Source: Myceligenerans salitolerans
GTDB taxonomy: Bacteria; Actinomycetota; Actinomycetes; Actinomycetales; Cellulomonadaceae
Assembly (NCBI RefSeq): GCF_017349295.1
Contig: NZ_JAFMPK010000041.1
Span: forward strand, 1 to 50,796
Direction of reading: 5' to 3'
DNA: 50,796 bases
The notes beneath the pieces were generated by a model. It saw nothing but the letters and a program-made list of their open reading frames with translations, was not told the DNA's origin and did no database searches. A program made the translations under genes and the position numbers. Positions 2,586 through 16,662 of this stretch are shown in pieces. The first letter of the stretch is position 1. Each line of letters starts with the position of its first letter.

Positions 2586-3746
2586 ATGGCAGGCATGGCC
2601 AAGCCGATGCCGATCACCGGAACTGTCCTCCAGTGGGCGCTCCGCGATCGCGGTCTGGATGTACGCTCCGCCGCGGAAGCAACAGGGGTCACCCCAGCGA
2701 CCATCCGCGCGTGGATCGCCGAGACCAAGGCTCCGAACAAGGGGCAGTTCAACTCCCTGGTCAAGCTGCTCGGCTGCAAGCCATCGTTCCTGTTCTTGCC
2801 AGAGCCGCCAAGACGACCTCGCGACCATGCAGTTGAGTTTCGGAAGTACAGCGGTGCTCCGAGCGAAGTTCCGGCTGAGACCAGCGAGGCCGTCCGGAGA
2901 GCTGCCTCCGTGCTGAAGGTGTCACTCTGGCTTGCAGGGCGGCGCGAGGAGGATTCCCAGCGACCTCCACCCGTTCCGCGAGCACAGAGCGACGAAGATC
3001 CAGAGGCGATCGCTTCTCAGCTCAGGAGCTGGTTGAACTGGAGCCTTGAAGAGCAAACGAACAGCGGCACCACCGACACAAGCGCTGCTAAAGCGCTAAG
3101 GAATGCTATTCAACGGCGCGGGGTACTCGTACTCCACATGACCATGGATGAAGGCGTCACTCGGGGCTTTAGCTTGCACGAGAACGACGAAGCTCTGATT
3201 GCCGTGAATACCAGAGATCATGTACGAGCCCGCATGTTCTCGTACGCCCATGAGCTGGCACACCTGACCTTGCGTGACGACTCCGTGTGCCTCACTCGGT
3301 CAAACGACGGCATCGAAGGTTTCTGCAACCGTGTGGCTGCCGCACTACTAATGCCTCAAGCAGCGTTCCGCAACGCCGTGACGGAGAAGGTGCGGGGCAG
3401 AGTCTCCACCGTCGAAGATGCCAAGAAGATTCGGAACTACTTCCGGGTAAGCATTCAGGCCGCGGCCATTAGGGCTGAGACGCTCGGCCTCGCCCCAGCG
3501 ACTCTGTATCAGCAAGTGCTAGCCGAGGCCGACAAGAAGATACCCGGCGGTCGATACACCCCCGGAACAGAGCGAACCAAGCCTCGAATTCGCGTCGATC
3601 AGTACGGATGGAGCTTCGTCAGTTCGGTGCTCGACGCCGAAGAATCGGGAACCCTGAAGCGGTCCCAGGTTCTTGATCTCTTAAAGCTCTCCGACAAGGA
3701 ACTGGAGACAGCCCGCGGCCTCGCGATGGAAGGTGCGGTCGGGTGA
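2586..3746 (+). CDS. XRE-family HTH / ImmA-IrrE zinc peptidase (antitoxin- or regulator-type)
   Basis: A 386-residue protein. Residues about 10-60 form an XRE-like helix-turn-helix (VRSAAEATGVTPATIRAWI). After a linker comes an ImmA/IrrE (COG2856) metallopeptidase domain with HELAHL at residues 222-227 and the downstream EGFCNRVAAALLMP helix carrying the third metal ligand. In this family the peptidase cleaves or senses a repressor, and XRE-ImmA fusions are often paired with a toxin or control mobile elements. The next gene starts on its stop (GTGA overlap), so the two are translationally coupled. The G+C is well below that of the rest of the element, which suggests separate acquisition. Its actual target is unknown. 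Confidence 0.8.
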   Translation: MAGMAKPMPITGTVLQWALRDRGLDVRSAAEATGVTPATIRAWIAETKAPNKGQFNSLVKLLGCKPSFLFLPEPPRRPRDHAVEFRKYSGAPSEVPAETSEAVRRAASVLKVSLWLAGRREEDSQRPPPVPRAQSDEDPEAIASQLRSWLNWSLEEQTNSGTTDTSAAKALRNAIQRRGVLVLHMTMDEGVTRGFSLHENDEALIAVNTRDHVRARMFSYAHELAHLTLRDDSVCLTRSNDGIEGFCNRVAAALLMPQAAFRNAVTEKVRGRVSTVEDAKKIRNYFRVSIQAAAIRAETLGLAPATLYQQVLAEADKKIPGGRYTPGTERTKPRIRVDQYGWSFVSSVLDAEESGTLKRSQVLDLLKLSDKELETARGLAMEGAVG

Positions 3747-4252
3747 GCAAGTCGATTTGCATCGCGGACGCCAGCGTCCTCCATGAGATCTCGCGCTCAA
3801 TCGATAGCGCAAGACATGCCGATATGATCCACGGGCTGACGAGTTGTGTCGACCAAGGCATTCTCGGCTTCCCGCGTGATGTCGCCACCGAACTGACCGT
3901 TATCGCACGTGGTGAACCGATCTGGTCCTGGGCAAACGGACTTACTAGCAAGATTGATAACTACAATCCGAGCATAAGCTGGATGCGACCATTCATGGGC
4001 TACGTCCAAGAAGCGGGCTTTGAGTACGGCATCGACGGCATCGAGAGTGGTGAGAACGCCATGGCCACGGTGGGTTGCCTATGCCTGCAACTCCAGTCCG
4101 AGTCGCGGGAATTTGTGCTCGCAACGGAGGACAACGGCGAGACGCCTCTCCGTCCGACCATGGAACAGATCGCCAATCTCGCTGGCTGGAGCATGATTGA
4201 CGCTCGTGGCGCCCTCAACCATCTTGGCCTCGGCCATCTGTCGATGCCCTAA
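3743..4252 (+). CDS. PIN-domain-like protein (possible toxin partner)
   Basis: A 169-residue protein starting at a GTG that overlaps the stop of the XRE/ImmA gene by 4 bp. Spaced acidic residues fit a PIN nuclease fold of the DUF4411 kind: IADAS at the N-terminus, VATEL near residue 52, GENAM near 108, and a final VLATED with the following NGETP. PIN proteins cleave RNA, and DUF4411 proteins are known neighbours of XRE/COG2856 proteins in toxin-antitoxin-like pairs. The match is by motif spacing only. Its 3' end overlaps the convergent next gene by 38 bp. The G+C is low, about 53 % in a sampled line. Confidence 0.6.
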   Translation: MSKSICIADASVLHEISRSIDSARHADMIHGLTSCVDQGILGFPRDVATELTVIARGEPIWSWANGLTSKIDNYNPSISWMRPFMGYVQEAGFEYGIDGIESGENAMATVGCLCLQLQSESREFVLATEDNGETPLRPTMEQIANLAGWSMIDARGALNHLGLGHLSMP

Positions 4253-5108
4253 TCGGGATGAGATCGCGAAGCTCTTGCGTCACGTAGTGGTGAAAACTCG
4301 GAACAGGACGACTATCCCTCAAAGCGAGTCCGGTAAGCAGACCCTCAGCGAACAGCAACAAGGCACGAGCTGATTCAGCAAGGTATGCCTCGCGATCAGG
4401 GAGCGAAAAGATCGTGTGAAGGCTCCCTTCGTGGATGGCTTGCCTGCTCACTTTGTCCGGAGGTGGTACATATGCCCCGGCAAGCACCGCGCCATCCTTT
4501 CGTTGTTGGACTGGCGCCACACCGATGAAATGGTCTTGTCCTGCTGGGACCGTCCAGCCCAGATCGCTCGCCAGTGTGCTGGATACGCACAAGAGTGCGG
4601 GGTCGAGCACAAGAAGCAGGTCGGGCAACTGTTCCGAAGACAGATCCGAAATGTGCGCCGCGATTGTCTGCATTTCTTGCGTGGCATAATAACCGACCGC
4701 ACAGCAGAGCGGATCCGAGCCCTGTTCGGAGTTCAACTCTCGAACGCTCTTGACCTTTCTCCCAATGTCTTGGATCTCTGCACCATTGATTGACGTTTTT
4801 ATCTCAATTGCACCCCTGACGTTTTCGACAGGGAACAGGACTTGGTTTGTCTGAGCAAGGATAGCCGGTTCGTTGACAGCGTCGTAGAGAATGATGTCAG
4901 TCTGAGCCGACCGATTCCCTTTCGAATCAAATATCAGTCCGGAACCGACGCCATACCGGAGCGGCATCAGGCTTGCGAGCACCCGGGACAGCGATAGCTC
5001 GTTCTCTCGCCCCATCTCACCCTTGTGACCAATGATGCTGTTGAAACCGTCCACCTCTGCCTGAAGTCGCCTGAGTACACCAGACCAGTACTTTTCAACG
5101 AGGTTCAT
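4215..5108 (-). CDS. DUF6602-like protein with PD-(D/E)XK nuclease-type core
   Basis: A 297-residue protein. The N-terminal third has the order GRENEL, then GSGLIFDSKGN, then QTDIILYD, then a GAIEIKTS strand. This E...D...ExK layout is the signature of a restriction-endonuclease-like fold as in DUF6602 proteins; candidate catalytic residues are the Asp of TDIILYD and the Glu/Lys of EIK. The rest is alpha/beta and uncharacterised. The ATG lies 5 bp after the stop of the Nudix gene upstream, so it is the last gene of a leftward operon: GntR, HTH-Nudix, Nudix, this gene. It may act in nucleic-acid cleavage or defence, but no activity can be shown from sequence. Confidence 0.6.
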   Translation of the reverse strand: MNLVEKYWSGVLRRLQAEVDGFNSIIGHKGEMGRENELSLSRVLASLMPLRYGVGSGLIFDSKGNRSAQTDIILYDAVNEPAILAQTNQVLFPVENVRGAIEIKTSINGAEIQDIGRKVKSVRELNSEQGSDPLCCAVGYYATQEMQTIAAHISDLSSEQLPDLLLVLDPALLCVSSTLASDLGWTVPAGQDHFIGVAPVQQRKDGAVLAGAYVPPPDKVSRQAIHEGSLHTIFSLPDREAYLAESARALLLFAEGLLTGLALRDSRPVPSFHHYVTQELRDLIPIRASTDGRGQDG

Positions 5109-5113
5109 GATGA

Positions 5114-5524
5114 TCAGCCCATACGCTCAGCCAGGTACGCCTGGACCATCGGCGCGAAGCCGTATGGCACGTAGTCGCTGAACTGGTCCGGTGTTGCCCA
5201 CGCGAAGTCTGCGAGTTCATCCTCGTCGGCCACGTACGCGGTACCGCTCTTAACGTCGCAAGCGACGTAGCCCATGAGTCGGCCGGTCTTTGGGTGCACC
5301 CGCTCGCCGAGGAGCTTGACCGCCTCGACCGTGAGACCGGCCTCCTCGGAGGTCTCGCGCACGGCGGCGTCCTCGAACGTCTCACCCTGCTCAACAGCTC
5401 CCGCCGGGAACTGCCACGAGAGTTCGCCCTCGGATACGCGCCGCTGGACCAGGAGGAGCTTGCCGTCCTGGACGATGATGGCCGCCGCGATAGCGGGCTT
5501 CTCTTCGGTCACTGCTTCAGACAT
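5114..5524 (-). CDS. Nudix hydrolase with intact Nudix box
   Basis: A 136-residue single-domain Nudix protein. Residues 42-64 match the full box: Gly42, Glu48, Arg56-Glu57, Glu60-Glu61 and Gly63 are all in register, preceded by WQFPAG. Nudix enzymes hydrolyse nucleoside diphosphates linked to another group; the substrate is not predictable here. GGGAGG lies 6 nt upstream of the ATG, and the start overlaps the end of the HTH-Nudix gene by 8 bp. In pSAM2 the transfer-immunity factor Pif carries a Nudix motif, so an exclusion role is plausible by analogy. Confidence 0.85.
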   Translation of the reverse strand: MSEAVTEEKPAIAAAIIVQDGKLLLVQRRVSEGELSWQFPAGAVEQGETFEDAAVRETSEEAGLTVEAVKLLGERVHPKTGRLMGYVACDVKSGTAYVADEDELADFAWATPDQFSDYVPYGFAPMVQAYLAERMG

Positions 5525-6167
5525 GGGTGCCTCCCAGCACTTCGAGGATCGGGTCGTAGATGGTGCTCTCGGGGATGAACTTGGTCAGGTTCGCGATCGG
5601 TGCCCATGTGACGCTGGCATTCTCGGCCACGTCGCGATTCTGCGCCTCGCCTGCCAGGTAGTCACAGTGGAAATACTCGCAGTAGACACCCGTATGCGGG
5701 TGTACCCGTGCGCCAATCTGCTTGGTGACGGAACAGTGGACATCTGTCTCGGCGTACGTCTCCCGGACGGCGGCATTCGCTGGGTCCCCGCCTGGCTTGA
5801 CGATGCCCGCCGGAAACTGCCACCTGAGTTCGCCGTCGTCTCGACGCTGGACGAGGAGCACACAGTCCGCGCGCTGGACTATTGCGATAGCCACGGTGAG
5901 CTGTTGAGCGGCGCCGTTGCCCGCGTCCGCCTCGTCTGCCCGCATCGCGACGCGGAACCGCTCGCGGGCGCCGTCGTCGGCCTTCTCATGGGCCGTATCG
6001 AGTATCCGCTGGATATCGGGCCGTGGCCTGGTCGCTGGGTTCTGGTGCCATCCCGCGACAGTCCGCGGTGCGATCCCGAGATGGTTCGCGAACTCGTCGT
6101 TTGACATGCGCAGCGCGGACTGAAGGCGAGTCGCCCTTTCGCCCGTCCACGCGTCGATCACGGTCAC
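5517..6167 (-). CDS. HTH-Nudix fusion with degenerate Nudix box (Pif-like)
   Basis: A 216-residue protein. The GTG at 6167 is chosen because AGGGGG lies 8 nt upstream; an upstream ATG at 6206 lacks this. Residues 8-60 form an XRE-like helix-turn-helix (MSNDEFANHLGIAPRTVAGW). Residues 90-215 form a Nudix fold with WQFPAG, but the box is damaged: the first Glu is Gly127, the first Glu of the EE pair is Ala139, and the last Gly is Asp142, while Arg135-Glu136 and Glu140 remain. This fold may bind a nucleotide without hydrolysing it. The DNA-binding/Nudix combination next to an intact Nudix enzyme resembles pSAM2-type immunity genes. It is the second gene of the leftward operon. Confidence 0.75.
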   Translation of the reverse strand: MTVIDAWTGERATRLQSALRMSNDEFANHLGIAPRTVAGWHQNPATRPRPDIQRILDTAHEKADDGARERFRVAMRADEADAGNGAAQQLTVAIAIVQRADCVLLVQRRDDGELRWQFPAGIVKPGGDPANAAVRETYAETDVHCSVTKQIGARVHPHTGVYCEYFHCDYLAGEAQNRDVAENASVTWAPIANLTKFIPESTIYDPILEVLGGTHV

Positions 6168-6220
6168 TGCAATCACCCCCTGCGTTGGCTTGCACTGGCG
6201 CTGCATCGGAGTTGCACCGA

Positions 6221-6235
6221 GGGCTCATCGAGCCC
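6221..6235. other. Small hairpin between the GntR gene and the HTH-Nudix gene
   Basis: GGGCTC-ATC-GAGCCC forms a 6-bp stem with a 3-nt loop in the 106-bp gap downstream of the GntR gene. With no T-tract it would at most attenuate read-through into the Nudix genes. Confidence 0.35.
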
Positions 6236-6273
6236 CCATGCGATCCGAAGTTTGCTGGTCACATGCGAACGAC

Positions 6274-6591
6274 CTACGACTTCGACCCGGCCTCTTCGAG
6301 CGCCGCGACCCGTGCTTCGAGCCGGGATACGCGCTCGTCGAGGTCGCTCGTCGTCGTCCTCGGGCGTCGCTGGCTAGCCGGGACGACGAACCGCCCCTTG
6401 CCCTGGTGGCCGATCACAAGCCCTTCTGCCATGAGCGCCGCAAAGGCATCGCGGACGACGGTTGCGGAGATGCCGTACTCGTTCATGAGTTCAGCGTTCG
6501 AGGGCAGCTTCGCGTCGTCTGGGAGCTCGCCGCTGTCGATCTGCCGGCGGAACTTCTCGGCCAGTTCCTTGCCGCTCAGGTGGGTTGTCAT
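6274..6591 (-). CDS. Short GntR-family regulator (KorSA-like)
   Basis: A 105-residue protein. Residues about 5-72 form a GntR winged helix (LPSNAELMNEYGISATVVRD, then the wing GHQGKGRFVV). There is no effector domain; instead a heptad-like C-terminal tail (LDERVSRLEARVAALEE, about 84-100) could dimerise the protein. AAGGAGG stands 10 nt upstream of the ATG. In pSAM2-type elements the equivalent regulator (KorSA) represses activation and transfer genes. Two near-palindromic sites in the divergent intergenic region are probable operators, one right upstream of this gene, which implies autoregulation. Confidence 0.8.
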   Translation of the reverse strand: MTTHLSGKELAEKFRRQIDSGELPDDAKLPSNAELMNEYGISATVVRDAFAALMAEGLVIGHQGKGRFVVPASQRRPRTTTSDLDERVSRLEARVAALEEAGSKS

Positions 6592-9912: not shown

Positions 9913-11082
9913 ATGACCACCCTTACCCGCACCACCAGCTCACGCGGCCTCGTGCTGGCCGCCGCCGTCTCGGTCGCCCTCATCTCGACCGTGGGCGCCT
10001 ACCTCGCCATGGTCCAGTTCGGTATCGACGTGCTCGCCATGGACGCGGCCACCGCCTACGCCACCGCAGGCGTGTTCGAGCTGTCCCTGGTCACCGTGGC
10101 CCTGCTGGCCCGGGAGGCAGCCAAGGACAACCGGCCCGGCGGCACCCTCCTCACCCTCACGTGGTTCCTGTCGTCCGCGTCGGGTGCGTTCGCGGCCTGG
10201 CACGAGCTGTTCATCGGCCACACCCTGGGCGCGGCCGTGTTCCGGTTCCTCGTGCCGCTCCTGGCCGCCCTGATGTGGCACCTGGCCCTCATCGGCGACC
10301 GCCACCTCGCCACCGGCCAGTCCTGGACCGGCGCCCGCCAGGCCCGCCGCATGCACGCCCTGTTCCTCGCCACCGAAGACCTCTTCCGCGCCCAGCACCA
10401 CGGCGGCCGACGCCTGGCCGCCGCCGAGGCCCGCCGCCGCCGGGCACGCGCCGTCGCGCTGCGCACGGTGCCGCCGGAGGCAATGCGTAGCCAGGTCGCC
10501 ACCTGGTGCGAAGCCCTCGGCGCGGTCGGTGAGGGCACCGCCGACGTAGCCCGCCTGCACACCGAGGACCGCGCCCGCCTGGCCGCGATCCTCACCCCCG
10601 GACAGGACACCGCGCCTGTGCACCTGTCCGGCCCGGACAGCACCCTGGACACCCACCCGGACAGGTACGCCCTTGAGGCGGCCGGACACGTGGCCGCCGA
10701 GGTGGCGGACATCCGGGCGGACACCCCCGTGTCCGCCGCAGTGTCCGGGCGGACAGCGGCGCGCATGTCCGCCCGTGTCCGGGCGGACAAGTCCGGGCGG
10801 ACGAACCGTCGTGCGGCGCGTCCTGCCGGGCCTGCCGGGGCGGACAAGGCCGCACGCCTCGCGATCGTGTCCGGCCTGCTGACCGACCGCCCCGAGGCCA
10901 CCGCATCGGATGCGATGTCCGCCCTGTCCGGGGCCGGACACGACGTGACCGACCGCACCGCCCGCCGCCTGCTGTCCGAGGCCCGTACGGCGGACACCAC
11001 CCCGGACACCGCCGGGGCAGACAACGGCGCGGACACGACCGGCACCACGCCCGTGGCGCCGGTGCTCGCGGAGGTGAACTGA
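9913..11082 (+). CDS. DUF2637 membrane protein with C-terminal HTH-like region (Spd-type)
   Basis: A 389-residue protein. Residues about 10-135 form a DUF2637 membrane domain with four hydrophobic segments, for example LVLAAAVSVALISTVGAYLA and VFRFLVPLLAALMWHLALIG. Residues 135-230 are basic and helical. After a low-complexity Asp/Ala/Thr-rich stretch, the end (about 325-365) looks like a replication or HTH-type helix pair (DAMSALSGAGHDVTDRTARR). DUF2637 proteins are Spd factors that help spread transferred DNA. A chromosomal homologue at 34040-35527 is about 91 % identical over the membrane domain by eye. The 3' third of the gene is packed with CGGACA/TGTCCG hexamers. Confidence 0.8.
   Translation: MTTLTRTTSSRGLVLAAAVSVALISTVGAYLAMVQFGIDVLAMDAATAYATAGVFELSLVTVALLAREAAKDNRPGGTLLTLTWFLSSASGAFAAWHELFIGHTLGAAVFRFLVPLLAALMWHLALIGDRHLATGQSWTGARQARRMHALFLATEDLFRAQHHGGRRLAAAEARRRRARAVALRTVPPEAMRSQVATWCEALGAVGEGTADVARLHTEDRARLAAILTPGQDTAPVHLSGPDSTLDTHPDRYALEAAGHVAAEVADIRADTPVSAAVSGRTAARMSARVRADKSGRTNRRAARPAGPAGADKAARLAIVSGLLTDRPEATASDAMSALSGAGHDVTDRTARRLLSEARTADTTPDTAGADNGADTTGTTPVAPVLAEVN
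10599..11035. repeat. Cluster of 22 CGGACA/TGTCCG hexamers (candidate clt)
   Basis: I count 13 CGGACA and 9 TGTCCG in 437 bp of the 3' part of the DUF2637 gene, and none in the preceding 686 bp of the same gene. The homologous chromosomal gene has about one. Streptomyces TraB-type translocases bind clusters of short repeats (clt), so this may be the transfer recognition locus. Confidence 0.6.
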
Positions 11083-11084
11083 CC

Positions 11085-11432
11085 ATGACCACCACCACGA
11101 ACCGGCTGGACCAGTCCGGGACCGAGGCCGCCGAGCTGGCACGGGACGCGCGCGCCCTGGTCGCCGGGGTCGAGACCGGCATCCGCGCTGCCGGTGTCGC
11201 GTTCGCCCTGGCCGCTGCCGCCACCCTCGCCGCGATGAAGGCCGACCTGCACGGCCTCGCGACCATCGCCGCCCTACTCGCCTTGACCTCGTTCGCCGCC
11301 GTGCTGACCGGTGTCCTGTTCCGGATCGCCCTCGGCGACCCGCCCGAGGCCCCCGACGACGACCACGACCACGCCCCCACCGGGCACCCGGGCAACCCCC
11401 GATCCGGTAGCCCAACCCCCCGCTACCGGTAG
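11085..11432 (+). CDS. Small membrane protein (Spd-like)
   Basis: 115 residues, starting 2 bp after the DUF2637 stop. Two adjacent hydrophobic segments (about 35-52, AAGVAFALAAAATLAAM, and about 57-80, LATIAALLALTSFAAVLTGV) are followed by an acidic, His/Pro-rich tail that would be cytoplasmic. It probably belongs to the spread functions of the transfer operon. The family is not recognised by name. Confidence 0.65.
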   Translation: MTTTTNRLDQSGTEAAELARDARALVAGVETGIRAAGVAFALAAAATLAAMKADLHGLATIAALLALTSFAAVLTGVLFRIALGDPPEAPDDDHDHAPTGHPGNPRSGSPTPRYR

Positions 11433-15203: not shown

Positions 15204-15449
15204 ATGAGCACGCCGACCGACATCCGCACTGCGCGGAACCGCCGGACCGACGACACGACGAACGGAGCCGCCATGCCCGACGAGTACCTGACCACCGAGG
15301 AAGTCGCCACGTGGCTCAAGGTCGCCGCCTCCACCGTCTGCCGCTGGCGCCTGGCCAAGAAGGGACCCCGCGTGACCTGGCTGTCCCCCACCCTCCCGCG
15401 CTACCGCCGCTCCGACCTGCTCGCCTGGCTGGACGAGGTGGCCGCCTGA
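15204..15449 (+). CDS. xis: Excisionase (Xis), HTH_17 type
   Basis: 81 residues from the ATG at 15204, which has AAGGAG 11-12 nt upstream; an internal ATG at 15273 with GGAG would give 58 residues. The HTH core reads YLTTEEVATWLKVAASTVCR, then a wing and a SDLLAWL helix. In AICEs Xis directs the integrase to excise the element. The stop overlaps the int start (TGATG), so the two are made together. Activation is probably through the iteron-rich leader. Confidence 0.85.
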   Translation: MSTPTDIRTARNRRTDDTTNGAAMPDEYLTTEEVATWLKVAASTVCRWRLAKKGPRVTWLSPTLPRYRRSDLLAWLDEVAA

Positions 15450-16528
15450 TGAGCGTCATCAAGCACGGCAAGCGCTGGCGCGCCAAGCTCAAGGACGGGC
15501 GGATCGACGTCGCGTCCAAGGTCTTCGACACCAAGACCGAGGCCAAGGACTGGCTTCGCCGGGAACAGGCCGCCCTCGCGGGCGGCCTGGACCCCCGGGC
15601 GGGCAAGGAGCGCGTCCGCGTCGCCCTCGACCGCTGGCTGACGATCCGCAAGACCACCGTCGCGGACAAGACCTACACCGCTGACGCCGACCTCGCTCGC
15701 CTGATGCCTCCCAGCATGCAGAACGTCCACCTGTCGTCAATCTCGGATCGCGAGGTCGCGCGCTCGTTCGAGACGCTGCTACGCAAGGGGCTGGCCGAGT
15801 CCTCCGTGGTGCGCTACCGGGCAAGCCTGTCGGTGTTCTTCTCGTGGTGCGTGCGCGAGAAACTGATCGCGTCCAACCCAGTCACGGGCGTCAAAGTGCC
15901 CAAGGGCTCCGACGAGGTAGACGAGATGGACCCGTTCACTGAGACCGCCCTGGAGGCCGCTTATCTCATGTGGAAGATGAAAGATGAGCACCTGGCGAAC
16001 ATCCTGCTCGTCATGGGCTGGACGGGGCTCCGCTGGGGCGAGGTCCGCGCGATGCAGGTCGCGAACTTCATGGAGGTACCCACCCCGGGCCTGATGGTCC
16101 GCCGCAACCAGCCCGAGGGCGTCAAGGTGAAGGCGACCAAGGGCCGATCCATGCGGCGCGTCCCACTGGCCGATCGAGTCCTGCCGATCGTGCGTGAGTT
16201 CACGCACGGCAAGGCCGCGAGTGACCTGCTGTTCACCACGGCGGGCGGCTCACAGGTCTGGCGCTCCACCTCGCTCCGGTGGCTCGACTGGGCCAAGACC
16301 GGCCAGGGCCGACGCCTGCACGACCTCCGCCACACCGCCGCATGCCTCTGGCTAGCTCGCGGCGTGGACCCGGGAACCGTCCAGGCATGGTGCGGCCACG
16401 AGTCCATCGCGACCACGAACCGGTACCTACATTTCCTCGGCACCGGCGCCCACCGCGCCGGGCTCGACCGCCTCAACAGCGACCCGGGGGGCACCGGGGG
16501 GGCACAAACCACGGGCACCGACTCCTGA
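15449..16528 (+). CDS. int: Tyrosine-recombinase integrase of the AICE
   Basis: A 359-residue protein. It has an N-terminal arm-binding domain (SVIKHGKRWRAKLKDGR), a SAM-like core-binding domain (about 55-150), and a catalytic domain with Arg195 (GLRWGE), His291-x-x-Arg294 (HDLRHTA), His317 (CGHESIATTNRY) and nucleophile Tyr326. All catalytic residues are present. It would catalyse recombination between the 47-bp repeats. The end of the gene encodes a Gly/Thr-rich tail whose DNA contains the right-hand G6CAC repeat. It ends 61 bp before the tRNA-Ala gene, the usual place for an AICE integrase. Confidence 0.95.
   Translation: MSVIKHGKRWRAKLKDGRIDVASKVFDTKTEAKDWLRREQAALAGGLDPRAGKERVRVALDRWLTIRKTTVADKTYTADADLARLMPPSMQNVHLSSISDREVARSFETLLRKGLAESSVVRYRASLSVFFSWCVREKLIASNPVTGVKVPKGSDEVDEMDPFTETALEAAYLMWKMKDEHLANILLVMGWTGLRWGEVRAMQVANFMEVPTPGLMVRRNQPEGVKVKATKGRSMRRVPLADRVLPIVREFTHGKAASDLLFTTAGGSQVWRSTSLRWLDWAKTGQGRRLHDLRHTAACLWLARGVDPGTVQAWCGHESIATTNRYLHFLGTGAHRAGLDRLNSDPGGTGGAQTTGTDS
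16486..16505 (+). repeat. Right copy of paired G6CAC repeat (candidate integrase arm site)
   Basis: Two GGGGGGCAC units in tandem, inside the 3' end of int and 80 bp from the right attachment repeat. They are in the same orientation and match 2520-2539 with one substitution. Confidence 0.55.
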
Positions 16529-16535
16529 ACAAGCG

Positions 16536-16582
16536 AAAACCCCCTCTGACGCGAGCCATTCGGCCTGGTCAGAGGGGGTTTT
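16536..16582. terminator. Intrinsic terminator shared by int and tRNA-Ala
   Basis: AAAACCCCCTCTGAC (16536-16550) pairs with GTCAGAGGGGGTTTT (16568-16582), a 15-bp stem with a 17-nt loop and T-tracts readable on both strands. It ends int from the left and the minus-strand tRNA-Ala from the right. The insertion thus supplies a replacement for the tRNA's displaced terminator at 2356-2387. Confidence 0.88.
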
Positions 16583-16585
16583 TCT

Positions 16586-16632
16586 CGGGTGGAGCTAGGG
16601 GGATTCGAACCCCCGACCTTCTCATTGCGAAC
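16586..16632. repeat. Attachment-site repeat within tRNA-Ala (proximal att)
   Basis: Identical to 2391-2437 over 47 bp. It covers the 3' half of the intact tRNA gene from the anticodon loop to a few bases past its end, so the tRNA is restored on integration. Confidence 0.9.
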
Positions 16633-16662
16633 GAGACGCGCTACCAACTGCGCCATAGCCCC
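16590..16662 (-). tRNA. tRNA-Ala, anticodon CGC
   Basis: A 73-nt cloverleaf. The acceptor stem GGGGCTA/TAGCTCC has the G3-U70 pair that identifies tRNA-Ala; the D arm is GCGC...GCGC; the anticodon loop TTCGCAA gives CGC (reads GCG); the T arm is GGGGG TTCGAAT CCCCC; the discriminator is A. No CCA is encoded. It is the integration target of the element. Confidence 0.95.

Follow-up and report, generated by a model that had tools for sequence, protein, structure and literature searches.

A 50,796-nt stretch of DNA from Myceligenerans salitolerans (contig NZ_JAFMPK010000041.1 of assembly GCF_017349295.1), referred to here as the window, was analysed around a putative actinomycete integrative and conjugative element (AICE). 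The element carries three tightly packed genes, encoding a helix-turn-helix (HTH) protein with an ImmA/IrrE-type peptidase domain, a PIN-like protein and, on the opposite strand, a relative of the nuclease NucC. These genes form a recurrent trio, which we treat below as a cassette:

2586–3746, plus strand: HTH-ImmA/IrrE protein (Peptidase_M78; PF06114, 5.1e-17), a predicted VapB52/RmrA-like antitoxin and sensor of single-stranded DNA (ssDNA)
3743–4252, plus strand: DUF4411/PIN-like protein, a predicted toxin; the start of the gene overlaps the HTH-ImmA gene by 4 bp
4215–5108, minus strand: DUF6602 protein, a predicted NucC-family PD-(D/E)XK nuclease (PF20247, 1.7e-22); the gene is convergent with the PIN gene, with a 38-bp overlap of the 3′ ends

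The three genes of the cassette

The HTH-ImmA protein has 386 aa, with the Peptidase_M78 domain located after the HTH. It matches the RmrA model of PADLOC (6.4e-28) and PDB entry 9vzy (1.7e-21), while no match to the PADLOC model of the toxin RmrT was found at the window locus. According to the data section of PMC13273310, entries 9vzy and 9vzz are structures of VapBC52, and this section together with the chain name suggests that chain A of 9vzy is VapB52. In the consulted parts of the same paper, VapB52 is reported to cut itself in the presence of ssDNA, in a manner dependent on the histidines of its HEXXH motif; an FR motif is the probable cut site, Cys229 acts as a switch, and H216, H220 and E245 are the zinc ligands. 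The release of the toxin by this self-cleavage is the authors' own inference, and VapC52 is compared there with DUF4411 PIN proteins. In the window protein, F85-R86, the HELAH motif at 222–226 (H222 and H226), C235 and E244 are in register with 9vzy, and the FR, HEXXH, Cys and Glu residues are present in the HTH-ImmA proteins of all four trios described below. As judged from its sequence, the protein combines the HTH, the HEXXH peptidase, the FR motif and the cysteine switch of a VapB52-type antitoxin, and by analogy with VapBC52 it may cleave itself upon binding ssDNA. In the consulted parts of the NetFlax study (PMC10440598), ImmA antitoxins are associated with PIN-like partners as well as with defence by RosmerTA.

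The PIN-like protein gave no direct match in Pfam. It is 45.5% identical to its counterpart on a Rhodococcus plasmid (L011), the only relative found directly in the plasmid search; no match was obtained in the 393 other genomes of the class, nor in the Streptomyces contig that carries the trio (L063). The assignment to DUF4411 comes from profile comparison with hhalign: a profile of the four trio PIN sequences matched the DUF4411 profile at 97.6% (3.8e-12), and a profile built from the window and Rhodococcus rows only still matched it at 81% (1.2e-5). The PIN protein of the Kocuria trio matched PF14367 (DUF4411) at 1.7e-4, just below the cut-off, and the window protein at E 0.014 over 37 residues, a weak match; the Rhodococcus and Streptomyces proteins matched each other at 6.9e-8. 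The aspartate of an 'ADP' motif, one of the DUF4411 acids, is not conserved among the four proteins. The 4-bp overlap with the HTH-ImmA gene and the DUF4411 profile match are consistent with the PIN-domain partner of a VapBC52-type toxin–antitoxin (TA) pair. The AlphaFold model of the window protein was poor (predicted local distance difference test score, pLDDT, 37) and was discarded as evidence, as were PDB hits between the PIN profile and designed armadillo proteins, which are sums of weak repeats.

The DUF6602 protein exceeds the PF20247 cut-off of 27 bits by a wide margin (79.7 bits). It also matches the PADLOC NucC model (2.4e-21), an effector model (4.9e-27) and five distinct NucC sequences of solved structure (2.5e-12 to 1.9e-10, the best being PDB 7zgv at 2.5e-12). 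Its AlphaFold model is of low confidence (pLDDT 45, with blocks of residues 51–130 at 56–77) and serves here as support for the NucC assignment only; in a Foldseek search with this model, all 14 matches at E <= 0.001 were NucC chains. The first-pass annotation of this DNA had pointed to an E...D...ExK nuclease-type core in this protein, and the alignment bears this out: in the core E37, D71, E102-I-K104, the four residues E37, D71, E102 and K104 are identical in 15 of 15 aligned DUF6602 proteins. By sequence, DUF6602 is a NucC homologue with an E...D...ExK core, resembling NucC (7zgv, 6p7o, 6q1h) both in this core and in overall homology; nuclease activity is predicted.

Recurrence of the trio and its separation from the Nudix genes

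The trio, in the same order and orientation, is present at four places: the window, a plasmid of Rhodococcus rhodochrous (L011), a Kocuria plasmid (L012) and a Streptomyces contig (L063). The closest relative is the Rhodococcus locus, in which DUF6602 is convergent with genes for a 167-aa protein and an XRE/ImmA protein, with no Nudix gene, and whose products are 44% (DUF6602), 46% (PIN) and 44% (ImmA) identical to those of the window. The 3′ ends of the convergent genes overlap by 38, 6 and 17 bp in the window, L011 and L012, listed in this order, and are separated by 2 bp in L063. The trio was first noticed through annotation at the two plasmid loci and by tblastn at L063; a scan of genome contigs with a single sequence revealed no DUF6602 relative, whereas a two-row profile found L063. 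The Rhodococcus DUF6602 was taken from an upstream start (7995) rather than from the annotated one (8055). Since the profiles were built from the four trio rows that they rank highest, the scores of these rows are not independent evidence.

In the maximum-likelihood tree, the four trio DUF6602 proteins form one clade (support 96/94), apart from DUF6602 proteins associated with the cyclic-oligonucleotide-based antiphage signalling system (CBASS). The four trio ImmA proteins likewise form one clade (84/64), and its sister is an ImmA-DUF4411 pair of Iamia that lacks DUF6602. The tree rows from L045–L052 and L081–L091 are stop-to-stop frames, and L083, with an internal X or stop, was kept.

DUF6602 was found in seven further genomes, at eight places, in a scan of 394 genomes of the class, and no ImmA or PIN match was detected at these eight loci (L045–L052), some of which are short. 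A scan of 213 genomes of the phylum added three distant DUF6602 proteins besides that of the window. Among viral sequences, one scan revealed no DUF6602, and a second scan revealed one distant member (L109) without an ImmA or PIN match. Starting from ImmA, no DUF6602 was found at 16 bacterial and 53 viral loci, although a DUF4411 match lies near 35 of the 53 viral ones; HTH-ImmA/DUF4411 pairs without DUF6602 are also annotated in all five plasmid relatives inspected. On the viral contigs (L114–L166), a DUF4411/PIN gene of the same strand stands directly downstream of HTH-ImmA in 28 of 53 loci.

The first-pass annotation had placed DUF6602 in another company, as the last gene of a leftward four-gene operon with the following genes:

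6274–6591, minus strand: short GntR-type winged-helix regulator (PF00392, 9.8e-15)
5517–6206, minus strand: HTH-Nudix protein (PF00293, 3e-14) with three residues of the Nudix box lost
5114–5524, minus strand: Nudix hydrolase with a near-intact box (PF00293, 7.5e-23), outside the recurrent trio

The open reading frames and Pfam matches agree with that description, and so does the operon-like spacing, with a 67-bp gap between GntR and HTH-Nudix, an 8-bp overlap between HTH-Nudix and Nudix, and a 5-bp gap between Nudix and DUF6602. From this arrangement it had been proposed that Nudix proteins sense a signal and DUF6602 acts as the effector, excluding incoming DNA in the manner of the pSAM2 protein Pif, a Nudix protein that confers conjugal immunity (PMC3218068, parts consulted). 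Besides the spacing in the window, this precedent is what speaks for such a module, and the comparative evidence points the other way. Relatives of the window Nudix and HTH-Nudix proteins were found at none of the 21 other DUF6602 loci of the profile survey (L081 and L086 are short; L013, read by annotation only, stands outside the 21). In a weaker check limited to flanks of about 1.5 kb, DUF6602 was absent from all 29 loci (L016–L044) with a match to one part of the HTH-Nudix protein, either its HTH or its Nudix half, and never to the full length. The first-pass annotation had itself named a lack of conserved linkage between DUF6602 and Nudix genes as evidence against its module, and in the present sample this half of the argument, the one accessible to computation, goes against it (0 of 21).

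The base composition changes at the same junction. The G+C content is 60.7% in the ImmA gene, 57.6% in the PIN gene and 55.0% in DUF6602, and rises to 65.5% in Nudix, 64.8% in HTH-Nudix and 66.4% in GntR, with 69–74% in the other measured parts of the AICE (64.8–74.1% in the rest of the AICE); the step from 55.0 to 65.5% lies between DUF6602 and Nudix, inside the apparent operon. Two related AICEs complete the comparison. The second AICE of the same genome shares the backbone with the window element and has a transfer gene 77% identical to that of the window at the DNA level, and a third, in another genome of the family, also has the backbone in common. Both carry GntR relatives (32 and 42% identity), while the 19-kb stretches taken from them contain no tblastn match (E <= 0.01) to ImmA, PIN, DUF6602, Nudix or HTH-Nudix. 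The G+C steps and this comparison suggest that GntR belongs to the AICE backbone, that the Nudix pair is accessory, and that the trio is a third layer. A Nudix-coupled nuclease is, in our view, very unlikely, and DUF6602 as a partner of the Nudix genes was dropped on these grounds. The broader idea of an exclusion or defence module fared better: the nuclease core and the mobile setting are supported, a defence role is plausible, and it is the grouping with Nudix that does not stand. The apparent operon, naturally read as one unit, would consist of AICE genes followed by part of a foreign cassette, the other half of which lies on the opposite strand; the first-pass annotation covered 4215–6591, and the plus-strand genes at 2586–4252, as well as both att-type repeats of the element, lie outside these coordinates.

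The presumed gate of the nuclease and a possible ssDNA-triggered system

Many relatives of the window nuclease are found next to CBASS genes. Among 114 plasmid records matching DUF6602, 13 loci were read (L011–L013, L053–L062), and in 7 of the 11 other than L011 and L012 CBASS-type genes directly adjoin DUF6602. A CBASS cyclase and an AAA ATPase are annotated beside it in L055, L057, L058, L060, L061 and L062, and nucleotidyltransferase, ThiF and Mov34 genes in L013. In L054 the CBASS-type genes are on the opposite strand from DUF6602, with a WYL gene between them; a nucleotidyltransferase adjoins DUF6602 in L053 and L056, and neither a CBASS-type gene nor a nucleotidyltransferase is present at L059. 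ImmA matches were obtained at three of these loci, L055, L058 and L062, near the CBASS operons. In L055 (376–1970) and L062 (394–1948) the HTH-ImmA protein is a single chain (RmrA model, 8e-51 and 1e-51) encoded divergently from the CBASS-NucC operon. It has a small partner, with a weak PIN match (0.005) in L062 only; here an ImmA pair neighbours a NucC gene in another arrangement than in the trio.

The four trio proteins were compared by column with 11 other DUF6602 proteins (10 associated with a nucleotidyltransferase, plus L059). An aromatic column two positions before a proline holds Y in 9 and F in 1 of the 10 nucleotidyltransferase-associated proteins, and N, E, D and S in the trio. A segment found in all 10 (with GG-x-Y in 8) is missing from each of the trio proteins, and a C-terminal column with Thr in all 10 has Thr in none of the four. 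We take these three features to represent the cyclic triadenylate (cA3) pocket and gate of NucC. The trio proteins are also longer (281–297 aa vs 225–254 aa in the ten relatives), with about 35–60 extra residues, estimated by eye, in the C-terminal half. The best reading of this pattern is that the trio DUF6602 proteins differ from NucC at the gate and that the nuclease is uncoupled from cyclic nucleotides; because the gate columns are lost, it would not be switched by such a messenger.

The window DUF6602 could instead be an orphan CBASS effector, that is, a NucC still activated by a cyclic nucleotide that a cyclase or Cas10 encoded elsewhere in the genome supplies. Its NucC homology, the CBASS-type neighbours of its plasmid relatives, and R or K in three of the four trio members at a column presumed to be Arg53 of NucC agree with this view, which the changed aromatic, GG-Y and Thr columns in all four trio members, with the roles assumed above, make improbable. 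No cyclase was seen beside the window gene, unlike in CBASS: no CD-NTase (the cGAS/DncV-like nucleotidyltransferase of CBASS) was noticed among the open reading frames around DUF6602, ten of whose products were scanned for families. In the whole genome, PF18144 (SMODS) gave no match, compared with matches in 3 of 14 control genomes, and one CBASS cyclase used as a query gave none either, in a search that had no positive control and did not extend to Cas10. Within these searches, no CD-NTase was detected in the operon or the genome, and the presumed cA3-gate columns of a CBASS effector are not kept in the window DUF6602.

We consider it an evenly balanced proposition that the functional unit is the three-gene cassette at 2586–5108, carried as cargo by the AICE, and that it acts as an ssDNA-triggered defence or addiction system whose NucC-type nuclease no longer depends on cyclic nucleotides. 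In such a system, the HTH-ImmA protein would repress its own operon and hold the PIN-like toxin. ssDNA produced when phages replicate, when DNA is damaged or when conjugative DNA enters the cell would bind the HTH-ImmA protease and shift the cysteine switch, upon which the protein would cleave its own chain at the FR site; the freed PIN toxin would then halt growth or translation. The NucC-like DUF6602 would be a second effector that cuts double-stranded DNA and responds to this trigger as well; the likeliest link is the protease, the fragment set free from it, or a relief of convergent transcription. The more specific idea of an abortive system uniting an RNase with a NucC-type DNase, both under the ssDNA-sensing, self-cleaving HTH-ImmA protein, with ssDNA and proteolysis in place of a second messenger, is tentative and rather unlikely as it stands. 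We infer a defence role, and the trio looks like an undescribed defence module.

The main rival, to which we give a limited chance, is that an ordinary VapBC52-type TA pair stabilises the element and merely travels together with an independent NucC-like nuclease of restriction-like or abortive function. ImmA-DUF4411 pairs are common without DUF6602, as counted above on plasmids and in viruses, which would fit a nuclease that is only a passenger, and the sequences upstream of ImmA and DUF6602 showed no operator in common. Conversely, the convergent order at four places and the two trio clades exceed what would be expected of genes that share a spot for cargo. Several further observations weigh against treating the three genes as one unit. 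Only four loci are known, the window included, and they had already been seen when the clade was defined; the support of the ImmA clade is modest, the Kocuria DUF6602 is distant (25% identity to that of the window), and the Kocuria and Streptomyces PIN proteins are joined to the window protein in a chain, by position, through L011 and by profile. The toxicity of the PIN protein is uncertain because one DUF4411 acid is not conserved in the trio, and DUF6602, lying 5 bp behind Nudix, may be co-transcribed with AICE regulators. The uncoupling from cyclic nucleotides is weakened by the presumed Arg53 column, where R, K, R and S in the trio do not amount to a clean loss of the gate, by L059, which has H at the aromatic column without an adjoining nucleotidyltransferase and shows that such a loss is not unique to the trio, and by the limits of the second cyclase search.

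One of the closest described systems is VapBC52 from Mycobacterium tuberculosis (PMC13273310, parts consulted), which shares the HTH-IrrE peptidase antitoxin, the DUF4411-like PIN partner and, in alignment, the FR and HEXXH motifs, the switch cysteine and the third ligand. It is described as a pair, with no mention of NucC in those parts, whereas a convergent NucC-family nuclease accompanies the trio at all four places, and the trio PIN proteins lack one DUF4411 acid. RosmerTA (RmrA/RmrT), with the ImmA zone of NetFlax (PMC10440598, parts consulted), resembles the locus in the RmrA match and in the link between PIN-like proteins and the ImmA node, and differs in the unmatched RmrT and the additional convergent nuclease. 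In CBASS controlled by CapP/CapH (PMC13273310, parts consulted), an ImmA-type protease presumably also serves as a DNA-damage sensor near a NucC gene. Similar settings are seen in L055 and L062, with HTH-ImmA and a small gene near CBASS NucC, and in L058, with split HTH and ImmA; CapP/CapH is encoded divergently from a complete CBASS operon, while the regulator gene of the window converges with that of a lone nuclease.

The trio was not found as a combination in the open-licence papers searched, none of which named DUF6602; 'orphan NucC' returned nothing there, and NucC with ImmA and a PIN domain returned irrelevant papers only. As far as this literature goes, the parts are known and the combination is new. 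If the proposal is correct, NucC can pass from control by a cyclic nucleotide to control by ssDNA and a protease, and the cassette offers a small three-gene system for testing by what means a sensor of the ImmA type sets off more than one effector. ssDNA is also the form in which many elements are replicated or transferred, so the cassette could act against other mobile elements.

The host element and the genes beside the cassette

The element that carries the cassette is delimited by the following features:

2378–2440, no strand: attL-type repeat, the presumed left end of the AICE, a 63-nt direct repeat 89% identical to 16573–16635
15311–16528, plus strand: phage-type integrase of the AICE, named by sequence and place, adjoining attR (G+C 69%)
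16573–16635, no strand: attR-type repeat, overlapping a tRNA-Ala (CGC) gene at 16588–16662

Between the repeats, genes for an FtsK-like and a prim-pol protein are present. On these sequence features, the element bounded by 63-nt repeats at tRNA-Ala is read as an AICE. A second integrase, its catalytic domain matched in a short stretch only, and an excisionase-like gene lie at 883–2439, either just beyond the left att repeat or spanning it; they are probably left over from a tandem element that shared this tRNA site.

The two Nudix boxes were judged by eye against the motif GX5EX7REUXEEXGU, which we assume to be the consensus, and the result agrees with the first-pass reading of one intact and one degenerate box. 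The box of the short Nudix protein, GAVEQGETFEDAAVRETSEEAGL, is intact apart from T at a U position, and that of the HTH-Nudix protein, GIVKPGGDPANAAVRETYAETDV, has lost three residues (E>G, E>A and G>D). The HTH of the latter gave only a weak match in Pfam (Phage_CI_repr, 0.071, below its cut-off). The proteins are paralogous (42% identity over 109 aa), and since one of the paralogues has gained an HTH and lost three box residues, their sequences suggest that an enzyme has become a ligand-binding regulator while the copy next to it stayed active. In the consulted parts of PMC3218068 and PMC11706625, GntR and Nudix genes are common equipment of AICEs, and an HTH-Nudix protein is mentioned for a Streptomyces ICE (PMC9513070, part consulted). 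The Nudix pair is probably accessory to this AICE, and the GntR protein, as part of the backbone, may have a KorSA-like role. The parallel with Pif and KorSA of pSAM2, a Nudix protein and a GntR regulator in an AICE (PMC3218068, parts consulted), concerns the AICE genes adjoining the DUF6602 cassette and not the cassette. Pif-like exclusion by the Nudix genes themselves is possible, their domain identity being the common ground. No AICE-like gene set was seen at the three Nudix relatives on Streptomyces plasmids (L092–L094).

In the second AICE of the same genome (L107, G000:C43:200500-219500, at 10396–11250), a GntR-type protein encoded beside the transfer gene occupies the position of the window's GntR, and continues in one chain into a P-loop-like stretch, GYAGSGKS, recognized by eye.

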